Shown piece after piece: positions 7,626 through 33,106 of a DNA stretch of 33,106 nt. Numbering within the stretch: position 1 is the first letter of the stretch; the number at the start of each line of letters is the position of its first letter. A program made the position numbers and the translations under genes. Location of the stretch: assembly GCA_902779315.1 (NCBI GenBank), contig CACZBC010000030.1:1-33106 (forward strand), given 5' to 3'. Below the pieces are notes generated by a model. It was given only the letters and a program-made list of their open reading frames with translations, had not been told where the DNA came from and made no database searches. Source of the DNA: an uncultured Bacteroidales bacterium (GTDB lineage Bacteria > Bacteroidota > Bacteroidia > Bacteroidales > Bacteroidaceae).

Positions 7626-7685
7626 CTTATTCTCCTAATATCTTATTCTCCTAATATCTTATTTTCTTAATTTCTTATTCTCCCA
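7626..7685. repeat. 16-bp tandem repeat at the 3' end of the DUF3667 gene
   Basis: Units starting CTTATTCTCC recur at 7626, 7642, 7658 (changed) and 7674, giving nearly four copies. The last copy overlaps the stop codon of the membrane protein gene. Confidence 0.7.
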
Positions 7686-8489: not shown

Positions 8490-8524
8490 CTTTTCACTTT
8501 TCATTTTTCACTTTTCACTTTTCA
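8490..8524 (-). repeat. Five copies of a 7-bp repeat in the DUF3667 leader
   Basis: On the plus strand the unit is CTTTTCA, five copies with the third as TTTTTCA. On the coding strand it reads TGAAAAG. It lies 6 bp before the DUF3667 start codon and so sits in its ribosome-loading region. Confidence 0.8.
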
Positions 8525-8539
8525 TTCTTTCCTCCCCCT

Positions 8540-12224: not shown

Positions 12225-12314
12225 CTAAAAGATTTCCATTATTCCACCCGTTTGGCGAAAAAACTTCGGAACGGCTCGGCTTTTGTCGCCCGCCCCCAGC
12301 CTCGTCGCCAATCA

Positions 12315-12424
12315 CCGCGTGCGACGTTCGCAAACGTATAGTGTGACGATTGCAATTGTATAGTGTTACGTTTGGGATTTACTAGTGTGACGCTTGGGAT
12401 TTACTAGTGCGACGATTGCAAACG
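12315..12424. repeat. Array A: five 22-bp units after trmO
   Basis: Units start at 12315, 12337, 12359, 12381 and 12403, exactly 22 bp apart. Each contains the core GTG(T/C)(G/T)ACG followed by a TTG or TCG motif. The opening is TATAG or ACTAG except in the first, degenerate unit. It is the same family as 23083-23192 and 30001-30110. It begins 7 bp after the trmO stop codon and is antisense to that operon. The rest of the gap to the GH5-GH43 gene (12225-12314) shows nothing else clear. Confidence 0.85.
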
Positions 12425-12431
12425 CAGGCCG

Positions 12432-13115
12432 TCATTCTGTCCAAGCCTCAATCCGATTGTTTTCGATGCGGAACTTGACCTCCCGTCCCGCAAACTCGAA
12501 GGCATAGACGCGCTCCGCATCGTCGTGATAGTGCGGACGGGGGTCGGAAAGCAGTATCTCGCGCAAGGCTTCGAGATGCTCGGCATCGAAACTCGCGACG
12601 AGAGAATCGCTGAAGCGAACCGTATCGTCCTCCAAAGAGGGGCGCAGAGTCTCCTCCGTGAATCCCCCCTTCGCTTCGGGATGACTGTCGGTAAAGGCCA
12701 GGTAAGGCTTGATGTCGAAGATGGGCGTGCCGCTCATCAAGTCGGCACCCTCCACCTCAATCGTCGGACCGTCTGGCGTGTGCAAATCGATGCTGAGAAT
12801 GCGGACCGAAGAAAGGCCGATGTTGTTGGGACGGAAAGGGCTCCTCGTAGCGAAAACACCCATCCGACGGTTGCCGCCAAGACGGGGAGGACGAACCGTA
12901 GGCTGCCATTTCGCCCCATCACGACGCGCTTCGCTGAAGTCCCAAAGCAACCAGATGTGGCTGAACCCCTCCAACCCCCTCAAAGCCTCGGGGTCGCGAT
13001 ACTCGGGCTCGAAAACAATCCTGCCCCGCAACCCCCTGACAAGGCCGCTCTGACGCGGCACTCCGAACTTGGTGGGGAAATCCGTCTCGATATGGGCGAT
13101 AGGTTTCAGTTCCAT
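12432..13115 (-). CDS. trmO: tRNA t6A37 N6-methyltransferase TrmO (TsaA)
   Basis: A 227-residue protein of the TsaA/TrmO family. Hallmarks are an N-terminal PIAHIETDFPTKFGVPRQ, then LEGFSHIWLLWDF, the signature GVFATRSPFRPNNIGLSSV, and GTPIFDIKPYLAFTDS. The family methylates N6 of threonylcarbamoyladenosine at tRNA position 37 using S-adenosylmethionine, within a small beta-barrel fold. The length and order of motifs match full-length members. Its ATG overlaps the 3' end of the MATE gene by 10 bp, so it is the last gene of the glycogen operon. Array A follows at once. Confidence 0.93.
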   Translation of the reverse strand: MELKPIAHIETDFPTKFGVPRQSGLVRGLRGRIVFEPEYRDPEALRGLEGFSHIWLLWDFSEARRDGAKWQPTVRPPRLGGNRRMGVFATRSPFRPNNIGLSSVRILSIDLHTPDGPTIEVEGADLMSGTPIFDIKPYLAFTDSHPEAKGGFTEETLRPSLEDDTVRFSDSLVASFDAEHLEALREILLSDPRPHYHDDAERVYAFEFAGREVKFRIENNRIEAWTE

Positions 13116-18806: not shown

Positions 18807-18829
18807 AAAGGGTAAATACGAAAGTTCAC

Positions 18830-19243
18830 ATGAGAAGATGGGAAACTACTACAGTGATGTTTGCAATCTTCACTGTAGTTAATGGCGGACAACCCTGGAA
18901 GCTTCAGCTGCATTGTCCGGAAGAGAAAATCGACTTGCATCTCGATCTCTACGAAGAGAGCATCGAAGTGCCTGGAATGGAGACTTTCGGACCGATGAAC
19001 GGCTACATGGATGGCAACATCTACGGCGTATGGTATGTGGTCGCGTTCGACATCAAGGACGACAAACAAGCCAGCATCACCATCGCCAATGACCTGGGAA
19101 GTGAGGATCAGAAGCTGACATTAACGCAGAACTCCGACTCCACCTATCAACTGAAATTCCTCGGTTACAATGCCGTGAAGCGGGCTCAGGGAAAGAAGTT
19201 GGTGAAGATTCCGTCGGAAATGAAAATGATAATTAAGAAATGA
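18830..19243 (+). CDS. Unknown small protein, first gene of the cytochrome operon
   Basis: A 137-residue protein that I do not recognise. The N-terminus (MRRWETTTVMFAIFTVVNG) has a short hydrophobic stretch that could be a weak signal or anchor. The rest is rich in beta strands: WKLQLHCPEEKIDLHLDL, YGVWYVVAFDIKDDKQASITI and STYQLKFLGYNAV, ending in a lysine-rich tail. A single beta-sandwich is likely. Its stop overlaps the next start as ATGA (19240-19243), so it is translated together with the cytochrome-SUMF1 protein. It probably works with it, perhaps in the envelope. The upstream hairpin and promoter support the ATG at 18830; 18857 is a possible internal start. Confidence 0.7.
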   Translation: MRRWETTTVMFAIFTVVNGGQPWKLQLHCPEEKIDLHLDLYEESIEVPGMETFGPMNGYMDGNIYGVWYVVAFDIKDDKQASITIANDLGSEDQKLTLTQNSDSTYQLKFLGYNAVKRAQGKKLVKIPSEMKMIIKK

Positions 19244-22142: not shown

Positions 22143-23051
22143 ATGAAACGACGCAATTTCCTTTTAACATCAATGGCTGGTGCAGCAACTGCTGCACTGG
22201 CTCCCTCAACGGTTTTGGCTTCTTGCGCTCCTAAGAAGGACGGGAAGAAAGCCAATGCTACCCCACTCAACCTGTGTTTCCAGGAAGGCATCGCCCTTGG
22301 CGCAAACCTTCAGGAGAAGCTCGACTACTGCGAAAGTCTGGGCGTAACAGGTTTCGAAGTAGGTGGAAGAGGCTTAGCCGGTCGTGTGGACGAGATAAAT
22401 AATGCCCTCAAGGGCCGTAACGTTCGGATGGCTGCAATATGCGCAGGTTTCGACGGTTTCATTCTTGCTGAGGACGGACAGAAAGACGAGTTCGACCGCA
22501 CAATGCGTGAAATCATCGAGGCTGCAGGCAAGATCAACTCTTGTGGCGTCATTATGGTGCCTGCCTTCAACGGGCAGAAGCCTTGCCGCCCCCACACAAT
22601 GGATACGAGAAACTATCTTTGCGAACAACTTCACGAACTTGGCGAGTTTGCAGTTCAATGTGGAACAACCGTCATCTTGGAGCCCCTAAACAGAGGCGAA
22701 TGCTTCTATATGCGCTTGGTTGCCGATGCTGCGGCCATTGCTCGCGATGCTGACAGCAAGGGCGTGAAGTGCATGGGCGACTTCTGGCACATGCAAGAAG
22801 AGACTTCCGACTATGCCGCATTCATGGCTGCAGGAACGGAATACCTGCAACATGTTCATATTGCAAGTCGCGGTCGACGCAAGACTCCAGGCGAAGACGG
22901 CGAGAAGGACAACTATCGCGAAGGTTTCCGTGCTCTGAAGGAACTGGGTTATCCTGGTTTTGTCAGCTTCGAGTGTGGTTGCGAAGGCGATCCGAAGATT
23001 GTTCTCCCTGCAGCTGTAGAACTGCTTCGCAAACAGTGGGAAGAAGCATAA
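22143..23051 (+). CDS. Tat-exported lipoprotein TIM-barrel protein (xylose isomerase-like)
   Basis: A 302-residue protein with a Tat leader KRRNFLL (2-8) and lipobox VLAS-C28. The barrel of the AP-endonuclease-2/hydroxypyruvate-isomerase superfamily follows. Probable metal ligands are Glu180 (VILEPLNR), Asp213 and His216 (MGDFWHM), His239 (HVHIA) and Glu277 (VSFECG). Such proteins isomerise or epimerise sugars or keto acids. It starts 12 bp after the Gfo/Idh gene, and both carry the same kind of export signal. They probably act in sequence on one sugar-like compound outside the cytoplasm. A hairpin without a T-run and repeat array B follow the stop. Confidence 0.9.
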   Translation: MKRRNFLLTSMAGAATAALAPSTVLASCAPKKDGKKANATPLNLCFQEGIALGANLQEKLDYCESLGVTGFEVGGRGLAGRVDEINNALKGRNVRMAAICAGFDGFILAEDGQKDEFDRTMREIIEAAGKINSCGVIMVPAFNGQKPCRPHTMDTRNYLCEQLHELGEFAVQCGTTVILEPLNRGECFYMRLVADAAAIARDADSKGVKCMGDFWHMQEETSDYAAFMAAGTEYLQHVHIASRGRRKTPGEDGEKDNYREGFRALKELGYPGFVSFECGCEGDPKIVLPAAVELLRKQWEEA

Positions 23052-23057
23052 AGGCAA

Positions 23058-23082
23058 GCCTTAGCTGAAAGACGGCTAAGGT
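23058..23082 (+). other. Hairpin without T-run after the TIM-barrel gene
   Basis: CCTTAGC (23059-23065) pairs with GCTAAGG (23075-23081), extended by a G-T wobble, loop of 9. No T-tract follows; array B starts at the next base. Confidence 0.6.
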
Positions 23083-23192
23083 CGTTGCCAAATGACACAC
23101 GTGATGTTGCCCAACGTCACGTGTGTTGTTTGTAAACGACACACGTGACGATTGCAATCATAACGTTATACGTTTCCCATCATCACACTATA
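23083..23192 (-). repeat. Array B: five 22-bp units after the cytochrome/Gfo operon
   Basis: Read on the minus strand, units start at 23192, 23170, 23148, 23126 and 23104. The first unit opens TATAGTGTGA; the second ends GATTGCAATCG. Later units show the same GTGTG/CG-TTT layout but are more diverged. Length and period equal arrays A and C, and it is again antisense to the gene it follows. Confidence 0.75.
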
Positions 23193-23198
23193 GGATAC

Positions 23199-23227
23199 AA
23201 AAAAGCCTCCGAGAGAATCGGAGGCTT
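23199..23227 (-). terminator. Terminator of the secreted-protein operon
   Basis: AAGCCTCCGA (23203-23212) pairs perfectly with TCGGAGGCTT (23218-23227), loop GAGAA. On the minus strand it runs into six T. It lies 23 bp after the stop of the 213-residue gene. Confidence 0.88.
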
Positions 23228-23250
23228 ATTGTTTTGAATTGCTTTGTCAA

Positions 23251-25281: not shown

Positions 25282-26133
25282 TCAAAGCGTCTTTCGAAGT
25301 TCCTCAGTAACACTTTTGACAGGCACCACCTGATAATCTCCGTCTTTGAGCCAAATGAGGCAACGCGAGATGATGGGAATGCCAATGTCTTCGAGCATAA
25401 GAGCATAGAGGGAAAGTTGTATGGTGTAGAGCGAGAAGTCTTCTTCTGTCATATAATCGAAGGGAAACTGCAGCATCTTTCCATACCTCCTATTGTACTC
25501 GTTTGCAAGATTGGCGTTAGTCTTATAGTCGAGGATGATGAAGCCTTCCCGTTTGCCATTGCTTCCGTCGTTGTAGTAAAGCATGTCGAAGGTTCCCGCA
25601 ATCTGCTCTTTGAGGTTTCGCTCCTGACAGGGATTCTTTCCACTATACACTCTTCCTTCGTTGAGGACAAGGTGCATACTTTTGGGCAATTCATTCATGA
25701 ACTTGAACACAGCCTCTTCCTTTGGATGAATTGGAGCGAGGAAACCATATTCGGGCATGTATTGACTCTCCACAATAGGGCAAATGCGTTCAGGCATTCC
25801 TGCTCGCAAATAGCCGAGACTCTCGCCATAAGCGTGAGTCTTGGTGCCAAGTGTGGTGGCACGGAATTGAATCTGTCGCCATTGCTGAATCCAGTATTCT
25901 GGAGTCTTGCCATTCTTCTCTGCATAACACTTTGCCTGCAGTTGTTCGTTGAAAGGTTCACGAATGAATTGATGAGCAACATTCGTAGCAGAGGTCAACT
26001 CCTTTCCGTTCAGGACATAGCGATGCCCTTCGTTATAGAATTCAAGGTCCTCAAACTCGCTAAGGACCTTTCTGCGCACTTCCGTCACCACTTCAGGCTC
26101 GCCAGCCACAGTGAACATCTTGTCTTCCCTCAT
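25282..26133 (-). CDS. PD-(D/E)XK nuclease-like protein
   Basis: A 283-residue protein. The core resembles RecB/Cas4-type exonucleases: GTKTHAYGESL near 96-106 (GTxxHxxxE), AGTFDML with Asp183, ILDYKTN with Asp202 and Lys204, and the QLSLYALML motif with Gln239 and Tyr243. These make a full catalytic set, so it is probably active on DNA ends or single strands in the cytoplasm. The ATG at 26133 overlaps the stop codon of the large secreted SGNH gene (ATGA), an odd coupling between an envelope enzyme and a nuclease. Met6 (26118) is an alternative start. Its role in the cell is not known. Confidence 0.8.
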   Translation of the reverse strand: MREDKMFTVAGEPEVVTEVRRKVLSEFEDLEFYNEGHRYVLNGKELTSATNVAHQFIREPFNEQLQAKCYAEKNGKTPEYWIQQWRQIQFRATTLGTKTHAYGESLGYLRAGMPERICPIVESQYMPEYGFLAPIHPKEEAVFKFMNELPKSMHLVLNEGRVYSGKNPCQERNLKEQIAGTFDMLYYNDGSNGKREGFIILDYKTNANLANEYNRRYGKMLQFPFDYMTEEDFSLYTIQLSLYALMLEDIGIPIISRCLIWLKDGDYQVVPVKSVTEELRKTL

Positions 26134-29100
26134 TTGCTGCTCAGAATTTTCTTGCCTTGACTGATGTTTATACCCCTTACCGGACGACTGAGGCGTTGGC
26201 CTGCAAGGTTGTAAAGCTCGCCTCTATTCGGAAAAGGGACAGAAACAGAACCTATGCCAGTATCGTCATCGGGAAGAGGAACTTCAACCAGCGCATCAGT
26301 AAACGTAGGACGGAACTCCGACACTTGTATCACGCCATTCCCGCCACCTTTCCTAGCTGTGATGACCCACTTGAAACTTTGGTATGCCTTCGTCGTTTCA
26401 GATGGTAATGTATAAGTATAGGTCTTGAAGTTCTGGTCCTGAAGTTTTGTGTCGTTCGTGACAGAAGCTATCAGTTCCCACGAAGCATCGTCCTTGCCTG
26501 GATTGCTGTCGGCAGTAGAGCCGTAGAGCTGCCAAGACTTGGGGTTGCGACCTGGATAAGTGGCATTATCGTTGGCTGTCGTAATCGTATATCCTGTCAC
26601 GAAGATGGGCAGAGACGAGTGGAAGATGTTGTACACGGCATTCCCTTCGCCACCATTTAGGCACCATTTCGAGGAAGTGTTGCCGTCGACAATCTTATCG
26701 TAGTCTTCGCCTGAGCCGAAACCTGCCGAGCCTTCATCTGGAATGAAGAAGACGTCGGCACTTGTCTTCTCGTATTCTTTCGTCTTTGCAGAGCCGTAAT
26801 AGAGCCTGTTTGTGCTTTGAGCAAGGTTCTCCATATCGTTTTCTCCGCCAAGAGGAGCGTACATTTCGAGGCTGGATTTCAGCATACGTCCGTTGCAAAC
26901 TGCTGTGATCTCTTCGGGTGTCATACCTGAACGCCAGAAAGACAACTCGCTAACTTCGCGACTATTGTTGTCGTCGCCAACACTGACAAATTCAATCTTC
27001 GACAAACGCTCCCCTATTTCGCCAGCCTTTACCTTGTCGACATACAGGATGGTGCGACGCTGTGCATAGTAACTTGTCAGGGAGATGTTGTGCCAATTCC
27101 CGTCGTTGATTGTTGTGGTGGAAGTGATTGTCGAGCCTGTTGGAGCTGTGTATGTGACGGTTCCATCAGCATTGACTCGGACGACAGCCTCTTCCAAAGA
27201 AACTGCTTGAACGAGAGAGACAACCTGACCTTCTGTGCCTTTGAGGCGAACTGTTACTGTGAAAGGATGAACTGTCTCTTCTGGTTCAAAGTAGACCCGT
27301 TTTCCTGCAGCGATAGTCATGCTCTTTGTCTGGTTGCGAACCGGCTGAGGTTTGCCTGCCTTGAGAGCGTCAAAGAGCGAAGGCACCATTGCATACATGA
27401 ATTCTGCATGGCCAGCCGTGTTCTGATGGTAAGTGTCGGCAACATATCCGTCAGCCCATTGTCCGTTACCCTTATCGATAGAACCGAGAACGTTGGTCGA
27501 GGGGACATCCCATTCGTGAATGAGCAGATTGAGTTGCTTCACATAATAGTAGTCGTCGTTGTTGTAGTCGCTACGAGTATAGTTGTTCATCACCATCGGT
27601 ATCTTCCCGTCTGCGCGAACCTTTCTTATTAACGAGAGCATGTTGTCGCGCCATTGATTGAAGACAGATTGCTGGTTGCTCGCTCCATGAATGCCTTCGT
27701 TGCCAAGCGATAGACCGAAGATGACATAACGGCCAAAGTCGCGAGTCAGGTCATCGTAACGATTCAGGAGGTTGGTTGTGGTGTTGCCTCCGATGGAGAC
27801 ATTCGTTGTGTAGAAGGGATTCTCGCTTCTGCCTTCATTATGGCGGGCGATGAGTTGCTGACCATAAAGGTAGCGATAACCCTTCCAATCGGTAGCGCCT
27901 TGACCGTTTGCAACAGAAGAGCCGAAGACGGATATGCGGTACTCGTCGATTGGGGCCGATATGTCGTACACCATATCCTTCATATTGACGGTGATGGTAT
28001 AAGTGCCAGAGTTCTGATAGATGTTCTCCACGCTTTGTCCCTTCTCGACTTCTCCGAGCACATATCTTGTTGCAGCACCTTGAAGACGCTTAATGGCGTA
28101 GGCGTCGTTGTTGTTGAGAGCGAAGTACATTGTCTTGTCAACCCATTGCTGAGAGGCGGTTTCCAGGAGTGTCACCTCACCCTCGAAGATGCCATTCCCT
28201 TTGTAAGGGATGGTGGGATTGCCTGCTCCGATGTTGCCTCGAACGTTCATCGTGACAGGAAGAACCGTGACTGTCTTGTTTCCCGTATTGACTGTGATGC
28301 GAGCCACACAGTTTTGTGCGACAGAGAACGGCGTTTCACCTTCGACATCGAAACTGCCGCCACCTTTATCCGAAAGCGTCACCGTCTCGCCATCAACTTT
28401 GCCAGAAAGTGTGAAAGTGCCTGCTTCGAGACGGGCAAAGGTTTCATAGAGGTTGCTTCCAAGCGATTTGAAAGTCACATCCTCTGCATTTCCGCTGAGA
28501 GAAAGGCTTGCGAATTCGAGCGGTTCTTCAGGCCGAGTTCCGCCTTCGTACTCTTCCACCCTCATCGCGCTGATGTGTGCCATTCCGAAGACTCGCTGGT
28601 AGGTGATGAAGATGTTGCCGCTCTTGTCCGGATAGATATAGTCGGTCTGCAGAATGTTTCGCAGGTTGCCGTGATAGCCCTCGCCACCTATGTCCGAACC
28701 CGAAGTGGTTTGTCCGCCAGTCCAAGTCTTTTGTCCCTTGAAGGTGTAGAGTGTGGCGCGATTGTCCGTATGATTGCGAGAGCCGTAAATGTAGAAGCGA
28801 TAGCAATGTTCGGGATTGAGTTTGGTCATCTTGAAGGAACGCACTTCTGCGTTATCTGTGAAGACATAATCCTCCGTAGCCGTCTTTATGGCGAGGTCTC
28901 CCAAGTCGTCCGAGGTTGGATTGTTGTTGCCTCCAGCATCAATGCCATTCGTGTAGGTCTTCTCCACGACAGTGAATCTGGCCCCAGTCGTAGTGCCTCC
29001 ACTGTTTTTGACGATAATCGTCTTGTTTGCCGAGATGACGTTGCTTGTGCTTGTTGTCGAGGTGATATTGTTCCAGCGATTGCCGTTCGCGTCTGTTCCA

Positions 29101-29894
29101 GTAGTCTGATGTCCGCGAGTATTATTGCCTGTCTCGCCGAAATCGAAGTACATCTTTTGCGTCAAGATCAACTCTTGGTTAGGCCGTTCCACGCCAGACA
29201 CCTCCTCCATCTTCATGCAATTGAGATAGACCATGATGCCTGAGGTCTTCTTTATAATGGTGAGGTCAATGTTGCCGCTCTTGTCAGGGAAAATCACGTC
29301 AGAGGTCAGGACCTTATTATTGTTGCCGTTATAACCTCCGTTGCCTATTCCAGAGCCTGACATCACCATTTCCTCGCGCCAACAGTTCTCGCCTGTCAAG
29401 TCGAAGTCGGCAGCTCTGGTATCCGTCGCAGTTCTCGAGCCGAAGAAATAGAAGCGGTAACCTTTGCTCAGGTCGAGTCCTTTGAAGTGGATGACGCCAT
29501 AGTCCTGACTGCCTTCCAGGAAGATGTAGTCCTGAGTCGCGCTCTCGATGGCGAGGTCGCCAAGCAAGGTTCTGGAGGGACTCTGCAAGCCGCCATTGGT
29601 ATAGCCATTCGTCGAGAAGCGGGATGAGAGCTGCAAAGTGCAGTCAGTCGTCGTGTTGCTCGAGGTGACAAGACTGATTGTTTGCGGATAGGCTTTGTCT
29701 GGCGCTCCTGTTCCTTTGCCGAAGATATTGTTCCAATAGTGTCCGTTCGCATCGGCTCCGACAGTCTTGTAGCCCTGATTCGACACATTGTTCTGACCGA
29801 AGTCAACATAGAAAGTGCGCTCCACCGTTTGTGACTCGGCATTCATTATGCTTGCGAAGAGTGCAAGCAGAAGCAACGTCTGTTTCGCTTTCAT
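26130..29894 (-). CDS. Secreted multidomain SGNH-hydrolase protein
   Basis: About 1254 residues from ATG at 29894, with signal peptide MKAKQTLLLLALFASIMNA. Two homologous beta-rich domains of about 200 residues follow (about 26-230 and 245-450). Each contains DFG, DANG-x-x-WNNI, GDLAI, a YRFY-x-x-GSR motif and PDKSGNI. An Ig-like/starch-binding-like segment comes next. The SGNH/GDSL esterase domain spans about 652-845: ISVFGSSVANG (Ser near 658-660), SIGGN, GLSLGNEG and the DTYH end motif. After that are a LamG-like region and an F5/8-type discoidin-like domain (VDGNTSSKWCLN). The C-terminal tail has YNLAGQRL, then GINISQGKKI. It probably removes acetyl or similar esters from plant or host glycans. 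A longer start at 29933 overlaps the promoter and is rejected. Confidence 0.85.
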   Translation of the reverse strand: MKAKQTLLLLALFASIMNAESQTVERTFYVDFGQNNVSNQGYKTVGADANGHYWNNIFGKGTGAPDKAYPQTISLVTSSNTTTDCTLQLSSRFSTNGYTNGGLQSPSRTLLGDLAIESATQDYIFLEGSQDYGVIHFKGLDLSKGYRFYFFGSRTATDTRAADFDLTGENCWREEMVMSGSGIGNGGYNGNNNKVLTSDVIFPDKSGNIDLTIIKKTSGIMVYLNCMKMEEVSGVERPNQELILTQKMYFDFGETGNNTRGHQTTGTDANGNRWNNITSTTSTSNVISANKTIIVKNSGGTTTGARFTVVEKTYTNGIDAGGNNNPTSDDLGDLAIKTATEDYVFTDNAEVRSFKMTKLNPEHCYRFYIYGSRNHTDNRATLYTFKGQKTWTGGQTTSGSDIGGEGYHGNLRNILQTDYIYPDKSGNIFITYQRVFGMAHISAMRVEEYEGGTRPEEPLEFASLSLSGNAEDVTFKSLGSNLYETFARLEAGTFTLSGKVDGETVTLSDKGGGSFDVEGETPFSVAQNCVARITVNTGNKTVTVLPVTMNVRGNIGAGNPTIPYKGNGIFEGEVTLLETASQQWVDKTMYFALNNNDAYAIKRLQGAATRYVLGEVEKGQSVENIYQNSGTYTITVNMKDMVYDISAPIDEYRISVFGSSVANGQGATDWKGYRYLYGQQLIARHNEGRSENPFYTTNVSIGGNTTTNLLNRYDDLTRDFGRYVIFGLSLGNEGIHGASNQQSVFNQWRDNMLSLIRKVRADGKIPMVMNNYTRSDYNNDDYYYVKQLNLLIHEWDVPSTNVLGSIDKGNGQWADGYVADTYHQNTAGHAEFMYAMVPSLFDALKAGKPQPVRNQTKSMTIAAGKRVYFEPEETVHPFTVTVRLKGTEGQVVSLVQAVSLEEAVVRVNADGTVTYTAPTGSTITSTTTINDGNWHNISLTSYYAQRRTILYVDKVKAGEIGERLSKIEFVSVGDDNNSREVSELSFWRSGMTPEEITAVCNGRMLKSSLEMYAPLGGENDMENLAQSTNRLYYGSAKTKEYEKTSADVFFIPDEGSAGFGSGEDYDKIVDGNTSSKWCLNGGEGNAVYNIFHSSLPIFVTGYTITTANDNATYPGRNPKSWQLYGSTADSNPGKDDASWELIASVTNDTKLQDQNFKTYTYTLPSETTKAYQSFKWVITARKGGGNGVIQVSEFRPTFTDALVEVPLPDDDTGIGSVSVPFPNRGELYNLAGQRLSRPVRGINISQGKKILSSK

Positions 29895-29938: not shown

Positions 29939-29993
29939 ATGCAAAAAAAGATAACTTGCAAGCATTTCCGCAGAATAATGACTGGAGACGTTT

Positions 29994-30126
29994 CCAAACG
30001 AAGGCAGCGACGAAGGCAATCGTATAGTGTTACGTTTGCCATCGTATAGTGCGACGTTCGCAATTAACTAGTGTGACGTTCGCGATTTACTAGTGTGACG
30101 TTTGCCATCGTCACTGCCTTCGTTGG
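29994..30126. repeat. Array C: five 22-bp units flanked by inverted repeats
   Basis: Units begin at 30001 (degenerate), 30023, 30045, 30067 and 30089. They open TATAGTG or ACTAGTG and continue with (G/T)ACGTT(T/C)GC. The array is bracketed by an inverted repeat: ACGAAGGCAG (29998-30007) and CTGCCTTCGT (30114-30123), nearly extending to CCAAACG / CGTTGG. It lies just after the alpha-2-macroglobulin stop and is antisense to that gene. Confidence 0.85.
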
Positions 30127-30131
30127 AGAGA

Positions 30132-30293
30132 CTACTTGACCTTGAACTTCTCGCCAGCAGTATTCGACTGGAATTCAGGCGCATAAAGGCAGGTCAGACG
30201 GGCTGGAGGCAAGAGGAAGTTGCCGTCTCGACTCACAATCCAATCCTCTTCAATAACATAGGTTCCTCTTGGCAGTCTGTCCATGAAGTACCC
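30132..30293 (-). pseudogene. Displaced C-terminal end of the alpha-2-macroglobulin gene
   Basis: In the frame next to the main one this stretch encodes YFMDRLPRGTYVIEED, then ending LTCLYAPEFQSNTAG. That is the usual terminal motif of bacterial alpha-2-macroglobulins (F-x-D-x-LP-x-GTY, ..., YAPEF). It continues exactly where the main frame runs out of homology, so it is the true C-terminus cut off by a frameshift near 30293. It is not a separate gene. Confidence 0.8.
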
Positions 30294-33106
30294 TGATAAT
30301 AGCCGATTCCGCTTTGCCAATGATAGCCCGAAAGCTGCTGGGCTGGCTCTGTTGCAGAAGGACGAGGGGCCTTCAGGCAGATATATTCATAGTCTTTGTC
30401 TGCAGTAATCGTGTAACGGATATGGACTCTGTCGCCAGTCTTCAACGTATTGTTCTTGGTCTGAACCTCTCTGCGAATGGTCATACCTTCGCGATGGTTC
30501 TCCACTTCATCTGCAGGCAATTGGTATTGAGCATAGACTGCACCCCAAGCAAGGCCTTTCCCTTCAGTCTTTTGCTCAATAGAAAGTTCCTTTGCTTTGC
30601 TGACAGATTCAATCTGTTCGCGAACATAACCTGTGAAAGGCTTAGGCGGCTCGAGCTTTTTCACTTGATTGTTGTAAGAGACTCGACCTTTCCAATTGCC
30701 TCCCTCACTATGGAATCCGCTTTGCATCAAAGCATAGATGGCATCTGCAGACTGTTTCGGCTGCTCCCATTCCTGGGTTCGTTTCTGCTGGATAAGCCAT
30801 TCTGCCATCTTGGCGAGCAAGTCCGTTTCCTTCGGTTCGACAGTTCGAACGGCTTCCATCAGGTTGACATGAGTCTCGACTTTGCGGTCAATACTGGTAA
30901 AGCTACCTCCTGGATAAGCCAGATACATGCCGTCTGAATGACGAAGCAACTCGTGGATGCGAGGCATCAAAGCCTGTGCCTTCTTCTCCTCTCCTGCTCT
31001 CTTCAGCACGATTGCAGCAAGGGCTCGAGGTTCTCTGTCGAGGTCTTCGGCCTGTTTCTTCAAGAGAGAAAGGAGATATTGGGCATCGTCGTTCAGTTTG
31101 TTCCTATACATTATATATATATATAGGTAACGAAGTTCGGAAAGGGACAGAGTCGGATTCTTCTCTTTACGCAAGGTTTCGACCTCTTTATGCATGTCTT
31201 TTTCGAGGAAAGACATCGCTTTGTCGAGAATTTGACTTTCAGGAATCGACCATTCACCCTTGATGGCTCCAAGTCTTACCAACAGCGAAGCGACCTGCGA
31301 AGTCATCCAAACGCTACCACTCATACCAGGGAACCAACCGAAAGAGCCGTCCTGGTTTTGTCTTGCAGAAAGGGCTGAAAGCATTGTCATCCGTCTTTGT
31401 TCCTGATCCATCTCAGCGAAGAGCGAAGCCAGACGCTTTCTGCTTGCCTTTTGTTGCTGTGCTTCGAGCATCCAAGGCGTTTCGTTGAGGAGGATGTCAG
31501 CCAGTTGTTGGTTCTTGACAAGCGGGCTTTCCAAAGCTTTGGAATTCTCCTCGTTTGCCCAAACATCGATTGCCTCGCGAACATTCGGGTACTTGTGAGC
31601 GATATGATAGGCAATGCTACCACCATAATAAGCCGTTGCAACCGAGAGGACATCGCTGTGGACGGGAGCCGTCAACGATGGCAAAGCCTGCAAAGCAAGG
31701 TAGATTGGTTCTGCAACATGCTCAATGGTCAAGGTCTTGTTCATTGCTTTCGGATTGCCATTTGCAAAGAGACCATCGAGGTTGAGCGTCATTGTCGTAT
31801 CACCTCGAAGCAGATAAGTTCGCGTCTCTGTCACGTTTTGCATGTCGGACAAGACTGGCAAGTAACGCACTTCGCCATCGCTGCTGCCCTTGCCTTTCGC
31901 TATCCATTGAACGGCGAGAACAGGATGGTCGAGGGTTGCTTTGAGTGGCATATGATAGACAGCCTCCTTGCCTGGTTCGAGGTCGAACTTCACCTTCATT
32001 CGCTTGACGCCCCAATTGTCCTCAGCACAATAGACGTCGAGGATGGCTTCGCCTTTCTGATGCTTATCCGAGGCATTGCGAATGCTTGCAGTCAAGGTGG
32101 CTTCATCGCCATTACGCAAGAATCTTGGCAACGTCAACTCTGCCATCAATTCCTTCTTCGCCACAACAGTCTCTTGCCATTCTGCAGTCATCATGTCCTT
32201 TGTATGAGCCAAACCATGCAAATGCCACGAAGTGAGACCTTCTGGAAGGGTAAACTCAATCGAGGTCTGACCCTTACTGTCAGTCCTTAATTGCGGATAG
32301 AAGAAGGCAAGTTCTGACAGATTGGAACGGACATAAGCCGCCTCAACAACTTCTTCTTCCGCAGAAGTGCCACGAAGACGCATCGTTGTCTTGCCCAAAG
32401 CCGCTGAGTTCTGGACAATATCCAGCCCGGCAATCTGACCGTTGAGGGCTTCATCGACGAACTCAAACTCGAGCCCCTCCACATCTTTCATATTGAATTT
32501 CTGGACAGCTCCAGCATACTCGCGAGCAGGCACAGCAGCCATTTCGAAGACTCTATCTGCTTTGCCCAAGCCTTTCAACCGCATAGTCTTGCCGCCTCTC
32601 GTCATTTGAGTATCTTGGAAGAACGCTTCGTTCCACCTTGCAAAGTCATAATCTTCGTAAGGTAAAAGGTACAAAGGCAAGTTGAGTGCGACATAACGCT
32701 GCCTTACATACCAGTCGTAAGCCCTCACTTGAAGCAACACATTACGGTTGCAGCCACGATAAATGCCCAAATACATATTGTAAGGATACAGCGCGTCGAG
32801 CGAAGCATCATACATGCCAACCATGACATTTGCCGAAGCGGGGCTGCCGTCAGGTCGCGTCAAAGTCAGTTTCCAACGCTCTTTCTGACCTGGTTGCAAC
32901 TGGTCTCGGAAAGTGTCCCAACGCATCGTAAGCTTCGTATCGGGCTGTTCTAGGCTGAAATCGATTGTTTCCTGATGCATCTCGCCTTCGTTCATGAGCA
33001 TCAACGAGACTGAAAGATGATGGCGGAATCGCTCTTCGTAAGGTACTTCGAACATCGTTGCCTCATCGGAAAGATGGAGAATTGTGTCGCGAACTATGCC
33101 GTTCTC
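30233..33106 (-). CDS. Alpha-2-macroglobulin family protein, partial and frameshifted
   Basis: The frame is open through the window edge, so the N-terminal half is missing; about 957 residues are visible. Seen in order are MG-type beta domains (ERWKLTLTRPDGSPASANVMV) and a segment like a TonB-receptor plug (ALNGQIAGLDIVQNSAA, then LRGTS). The A2M central signature follows (LPEGLTSWHLHGLAHT, LTLPRFLRNGDEATL), then a helical thioester-domain fold with the terpenoid-cyclase-like NQDGSFGWFPG. No CxEQ thioester motif is seen; the expected position reads HSDVLSVATAYYGG. It is probably a periplasmic or surface lipoprotein trapping or inhibiting proteases. At about 30293 the frame shifts, and the protein ends wrongly as EEPMLLKRIGL. 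This could be a real mutation or a sequencing error. Confidence 0.85.
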   Translation of the reverse strand, partial: ENGIVRDTILHLSDEATMFEVPYEERFRHHLSVSLMLMNEGEMHQETIDFSLEQPDTKLTMRWDTFRDQLQPGQKERWKLTLTRPDGSPASANVMVGMYDASLDALYPYNMYLGIYRGCNRNVLLQVRAYDWYVRQRYVALNLPLYLLPYEDYDFARWNEAFFQDTQMTRGGKTMRLKGLGKADRVFEMAAVPAREYAGAVQKFNMKDVEGLEFEFVDEALNGQIAGLDIVQNSAALGKTTMRLRGTSAEEEVVEAAYVRSNLSELAFFYPQLRTDSKGQTSIEFTLPEGLTSWHLHGLAHTKDMMTAEWQETVVAKKELMAELTLPRFLRNGDEATLTASIRNASDKHQKGEAILDVYCAEDNWGVKRMKVKFDLEPGKEAVYHMPLKATLDHPVLAVQWIAKGKGSSDGEVRYLPVLSDMQNVTETRTYLLRGDTTMTLNLDGLFANGNPKAMNKTLTIEHVAEPIYLALQALPSLTAPVHSDVLSVATAYYGGSIAYHIAHKYPNVREAIDVWANEENSKALESPLVKNQQLADILLNETPWMLEAQQQKASRKRLASLFAEMDQEQRRMTMLSALSARQNQDGSFGWFPGMSGSVWMTSQVASLLVRLGAIKGEWSIPESQILDKAMSFLEKDMHKEVETLRKEKNPTLSLSELRYLYIYIMYRNKLNDDAQYLLSLLKKQAEDLDREPRALAAIVLKRAGEEKKAQALMPRIHELLRHSDGMYLAYPGGSFTSIDRKVETHVNLMEAVRTVEPKETDLLAKMAEWLIQQKRTQEWEQPKQSADAIYALMQSGFHSEGGNWKGRVSYNNQVKKLEPPKPFTGYVREQIESVSKAKELSIEQKTEGKGLAWGAVYAQYQLPADEVENHREGMTIRREVQTKNNTLKTGDRVHIRYTITADKDYEYICLKAPRPSATEPAQQLSGYHWQSGIGYYQGTSWTDCQEEPMLLKRIGL

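Follow-up and report, generated by a model that had tools for sequence, protein, structure and literature searches.

Plasmid iterons, which sit at replication origins, are directly repeated units of roughly 22 bp whose protein sites line up along one face of the helix, and BOX elements of Streptococcus pneumoniae are dispersed intergenic elements in which a tandemly repeated middle part is accompanied by fixed outer modules. As these elements are generally described, the 22-bp arrays reported here resemble BOX in being dispersed and intergenic with a tandem middle part but differ in respect of the fixed outer modules, and they differ from iterons in lying at many gene ends rather than at replication origins. 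The nearest kind is the REP/BIME group, whose short extragenic palindromes occur in many copies, lie close to stop codons with several together at a site, and take the form of single elements and head-to-head dimers. CGTC repeats of this kind have been reported from Bacteroidetes, and the section of the report cited here describes them as having no dedicated transposase (PMC3733652). The nearest array known to us in the same order is the BrickBuilt MITE of Porphyromonas gingivalis, which is likewise an intergenic tandem array of near-equal unit length; the cited part of its description gives a 23-nt unit, 19 copies in one strain, and a leader and tail with IS5-like terminal repeats (PMC4596501). 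In the open-licence literature, we found no paper on 22-bp gene-end arrays in Bacteroidales. An earlier note on this DNA knew of no named element with this layout, and none was found in that literature, although the general kind, REP/BIME-like palindromes, is known.

The window analysed here is a stretch of 33,106 nucleotides from an uncultured Bacteroidales bacterium of the rumen, contig 30 of a genome of 2.83 Mb in 107 contigs (84% complete). Three arrays had been noted in it, each supposedly made of exactly five units of one type and placed in unrelated positions. A unit profile finds 22-bp arrays at or near all three places, with five consecutive units in array A, five on the minus strand in array B and five to six in array C. 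Array A (merged profile interval 12301-12432, plus strand) has its five contiguous units from position 12317 and adjoins the stop of the minus-strand ORF 12432-13115, directly behind it. Array B (23081-23190, minus strand) lies 29 nt behind the stop of a plus-strand gene ending at 23051 and has mixed cores: in its minus-strand reading it is mostly composed of other cores together with one TAGTG unit, so a single unit type does not hold for all three. Array C (29981-30118, plus strand) carries the complementary ends GAAGGCAG...CTGCCTTC and sits between the minus-strand genes 26130-29894 and 30233-33106. With A and B close behind a stop codon and C 114 nt from one, the idea of unrelated places is not confirmed. 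There is also a fourth, degenerate member (18812-18877, no strand assigned), an inverted repeat ACTACAGTGA...TCACTGTAGT around a TTTGCAAT linker, and the corresponding site of locus L059 holds a 22-bp array of different sequence. A terminator-like hairpin with a T run (23203-23235, no strand assigned) is found between array B and the next gene, outside the array. Elsewhere in the window, 7626-7683 and 8490-8531 contain tandem units of 16 bp (CTTATTCTCCTAATAT) and 7 bp (CTTTTCA), unrelated to the 22-bp family.

The core TAGTGTGACG has 379 matches in the genome, compared with 2 for a reversed control. In a 409 kb sample, made up of the window plus 20 stretches (L009-L028) and biased upward in density because these stretches were picked around listed matches, the unit profile detects 110 strand-level arrays with at least three units in direct succession, against none in the reversed sequence, and of the 436 spacings between units, 428 measure exactly 22 bp. 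The same period emerges when no unit sequence is presupposed: lag 22 is found in 48 non-coding regions and every other lag in at most 3, except the harmonic 44. The arrays are real and belong to a large family. The number of units ranges from 3 to 8 with a mode of 5 (16, 23, 36, 23, 7 and 5 strand-level arrays with 3, 4, 5, 6, 7 and 8 units, respectively), and orthologous arrays differ as well (6 versus 5), therefore "exactly five" is a trait of the window and not of the family. The earlier note had allowed that its reading would fall if no other copies existed, or if period or copy number varied freely; copies abound and the period is rigid, whereas the copy number does vary. What stands is thus a dispersed family with a rigid 22-bp period and covarying unit ends, and what does not is the fixed number, the single unit type and the unrelated places. 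The argument against slippage drawn from a fixed copy number goes with them, since the number is not fixed and one array differs by exactly one unit between sister genomes.

Each unit consists of a 14-bp core, in which two half-sites flank a central AC or GT (205 of 232 cores), and an 8-bp linker near TTTGCAAA. The half-sites form a small vocabulary of CGTCAC, TTACTA, CTTCAC, CGTATA, CGTAAC and CATCAC, with CGTCAC being the commonest in this genome (89/464). A dyad core of 14 bp followed by a linker of 8 bp places a dyad centre every 11 bp, or about one helical turn, and makes the array read similarly on both strands. The covariation between a unit's end and the next unit, pointed out earlier, is borne out at one dyad pair, namely the last base of a unit and position 6 of the next: with orientation fixed, we counted C-G 82, A-T 19, A-G 26 and C-T 2 (Fisher p=1.2e-8, for units that are not independent), and C-G 60, A-T 23, A-G 15 and C-T 0 in the sister sample. 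In five orthologous array pairs (a further pair, B58, was excluded because it repeats site B), we counted 6 double changes at dyad pairs, every one of them compensatory; around any of 24 shifted centres the number is 0 to 2. Because units recur within an array, the changes cannot be treated as independent. In a first pairing and mutual-information scan with orientations mixed, most dyad columns of this genome showed no pairing above chance. Overall, unit symmetry is in slight excess here (6.02 pairs versus 5.57 when shuffled, 48 arrays) and in clear excess in relatives (7.03 versus 5.63, 62 arrays). A gyrase-type wrapping site has an A+T/G+C pattern phased at about 11 bp. The A+T content shows no excess 11-bp phasing (z -1.0 in the 62 related arrays and -4.4 in the 48 from this genome), which argues against a gyrase-type wrapping or bendability site.

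According to gene calls made with a simple custom caller, only one of 57 merged arrays lies inside a gene. Gaps of at least 80 bp hold an array in 15 of 25 cases when the flanking genes converge, in 33 of 84 when they are co-directional and in 5 of 34 when they diverge; with this total of 53 in 143, an upper view since the stretches were chosen near matches, the arrays would be a leading non-coding feature of this uncultured rumen bacterium. In 27 of 33 co-directional cases the array starts at -29 to +52 nt of the stop, and in the 26 gaps with room to spare the median relative position is 0.07 (KS p=5e-9). The pull is weaker in an unbiased but small genus sample, in which the distance from the stop to the array is -13 to 389 nt in nine co-directional cases, every array being nearer to the preceding stop than to the next start.

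Such a placement is what one would expect of an RNA-level 3'-end element, transcribed as a string of hairpins that stops 3' exonucleases, stalls ribosomes near the stop codon or aids termination. The arrays do fold better than shuffled sequence as RNA, on both strands (mean z about -2), and the portion of a 2025 REP paper cited here reports that REPs at most 15 nt from a stop codon stall ribosomes (PMC12306157). However, folding does not differ between sense and antisense (lower in sense in 19 of 35 cases, p=0.56), and wobble pairs are not favoured on the sense strand (577 G-T versus 605 A-C mismatches), which argues against selection on RNA structure as the main driver. Terminator-like sites are equally common at gene ends with arrays (21/63) and without (22/71, p=0.85), so the arrays do not seem to be replacement terminators; at the 21 ends that have both, the site precedes the array 8 times, follows it 5 times and overlaps with it 8 times. 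At the gathering score, Rfam gives no match in the window, and a known structured RNA family was dropped as a candidate. Equal folding of the strands, the lack of a wobble excess and the mixed order of terminators favour a DNA-level element over an RNA-level one, and we regard the 3'-end reading as rather unlikely.

The closest named relatives compared, among them RGIG9745, RGIG10220, RUG606 and RUG11599, are genomes of uncultured rumen bacteria that carry the label Bacteroidaceae, Prevotellaceae or Bacteroidales. The array vocabulary of our genome is nearly private: a 27-mer of it, with up to 2 mismatches, occurs in 2 of 61 genomes including its own, and TAGTGTGACGTTTGC in its own genome only among the 61. 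Two sister genomes, reached through L083 and L058, contain 177 and 151 core matches. Vocabulary differs between species, and another word, AAAGATGGCACG, has 19 matches in genome G005 and none in G000. The period, on the other hand, is shared. Lag 22 is the commonest non-coding lag in 364 kb of genus genomes (18 regions; next lag 5), in 606 kb of named relatives (33; next 8) and in 712 kb of more distant relatives (9; next 3). Beyond the genus it is rare: other genera in the same family give 2 such regions in 561 kb, other families give 1 in 271 kb and have another lag at the top, and 50 kb of E. coli give none. Since L058 and L081 are both titled RGIG10220 and yet are 94.5% and 87% identical to the window, that bin may mix two strains or species.

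Place is shared as well. Behind the gene ending at 23051 we scanned 81 loci, of which 68 could be scored (in 10 the gap was too small, and 3 yielded no usable region). Lag 22 had to be strictly the best, with 28 or more matches out of 44; this holds for 16 of the 24 loci at 83% protein identity or above and for 2 of the 44 that are more distant. Of the 33 arrays in the congeneric loci L058-L095, a flank can be placed on the window for 31, and 28 of those 31 fall in its four array-bearing gaps; when site B, on which the loci are centred, is left out, the count is 11 of 14. The letters at these places have been largely exchanged, as units from 15 loci at the orthologous site behind 23051 resemble one another no better than shuffled units do (best circular identity 10.35/22 on average versus 10.30, 105 pairs). 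A motif CACG/CGTG, present in 27 of 60 units of relatives against 8.9 expected by shuffling, and in 277 of 3122 non-coding 25-mers, is a remaining trace of common descent (the set of 60 related arrays excludes L081 and L083 as near-copies). Place, period and symmetry are kept while sequence is replaced, so layout seems to outweigh sequence in congeners. At the same orthologous site, AAAGGCCTTT palindrome arrays are found in L064 (11054-11145), with lag 22 tied with another lag, and in L061 (11055-11139), where lag 23 beats 22; these two may represent a change of period.

Taken together with the comparison to known systems, these features lead us to a reading of the arrays as REP/BIME-like dispersed extragenic palindromic DNA that copies itself between loci, is maintained at the DNA level and has been reshaped by slippage and hairpin templating; we give this reading an even chance. 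The arrays work like a REP family, and we claim likeness and not membership. They are extragenic and of high copy, as the match counts and gene calls above show, and their unit is palindromic, clearly so in relatives, weakly in their own genome, and with compensatory changes. They differ from REP/BIME in consisting of head-to-tail, spacerless units at a rigid 22 bp and in having their sequence replaced between species at conserved sites, and neither of the REP/BIME tags, GTAG and CGTC, is among the 25 most enriched 4-mers of the 60 related arrays. In favour of the REP/BIME-like reading are family size, rigid period, stop-codon placement, dyad covariation, species vocabulary, the keeping of place with replacement of sequence, and an array in a phage (below); against it stand the weak symmetry in the own genome, the lack of 11-bp A+T phasing, RNA folding above shuffled, and the lack of a RAYT. 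A RAYT (Y1) transposase in the genome is a trait of the GTAG group of REPs. No such transposase was found in this genome, which is 84% complete, and a RAYT appears less likely as the actor on this ground. Y1 transposases above cut-off occur in 10 of 41 genus genomes, but not in the present one, which is the richest in arrays.

An insertion-sequence transposase moving the arrays by fixed terminal inverted repeats, as in a MITE with an internal minisatellite, might be suggested by the complementary ends of array C and some others, and by BrickBuilt itself, a 23-nt intergenic array in the same order in the passage cited (PMC4596501). Unlike BrickBuilt, our arrays have a 22-bp unit in hundreds of copies and show no common ends by eye; ends compared in this way share no single terminal sequence, and end pairs vary from array to array. 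We consider such a MITE highly improbable.

Comparison of sister genomes gives some view of how the arrays change. When array B is set against its counterpart in sisters with about 94% identity, one of its cores turns out to have been swapped as a block: what the sister has there is nearly an inverted copy of the core next to it. Of 10 orthologous arrays tried, 4 could be aligned. One orthologous array differs by exactly one unit (6 versus 5), and another has been replaced by sequence of a different vocabulary between conserved flanks. In L081, array A extends further than it does in the window. Slippage and conversion could make and homogenise such arrays as a neutral minisatellite, found behind genes for no other reason than that an insertion costs little at such a place. 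The one-unit difference, the variable unit number and the rapid sequence change all suit this explanation. Chance slippage, however, is not expected to hold one period genus-wide while the sequence is lost or to keep dyad pairs compensated, nor would it place arrays near the stop in long gaps, as the median of 0.07 indicates. Neutral slippage and conversion alone leave period, symmetry and stop-codon placement unexplained, and we find this account unlikely.

Under the REP/BIME-like reading, arrays would spread by array-to-array copying, occasionally to new sites, and slippage would change the number of units. Template switching in hairpins is described, in the part of the source cited, as producing inverted copies and compensatory double changes (PMC8794818), and we infer that it acts in these arrays, where it would copy a core, inverted, onto its neighbour. 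The 22-bp step would be held by a constraint at the DNA level. Its rigid two turns suggest, as the simplest constraint, a putative dimeric protein, binding or processing DNA, that would require the dyads to lie on one face of the helix and might change its preferred sequence from species to species. More tentatively, and with less confidence than in the likeness to REP/BIME, we propose that the element is possibly defined by its geometry rather than its sequence: tandem dyads, a 22-bp step and fixed gene ends would have been kept through the radiation of the genus, with the letters replaced wholesale and each species' vocabulary drifting with its putative dimeric DNA-binding or DNA-copying protein. 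Conserved place and period with replaced sequence is the reverse of the usual pattern, and because similarity searches miss it, comparable elements may have gone unnoticed in other genomes. The copying mechanism can be put to the test in sister genomes whose arrays have been exchanged in part.

The array in a phage comes from two IMG/VR viral contigs, apparently of one phage, which hold a short array in the host vocabulary (L242:7659-7768 and L241:12839-12948). The array is flanked by a methyltransferase-like ORF, which precedes it and matches a phage DNA methyltransferase family, and by a radical-SAM ORF; a terminase gene is present on one of the two contigs. Eleven other related viral loci have no such array at the corresponding spot. 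This suggests spread in trans, with one phage as evidence, and the case for dispersal is built on the shared vocabulary and this phage. A 15-base viral scan gave at least 120 stretches, mostly single matches, and among the viral loci examined lag-22 scores of at least 31 are reached only in L241-L244, which represent the same two contigs. On a related viral contig, L256, a weak lag-22 stretch (30/44) with GTTAACTTTAAC palindromes is seen near position 2168.
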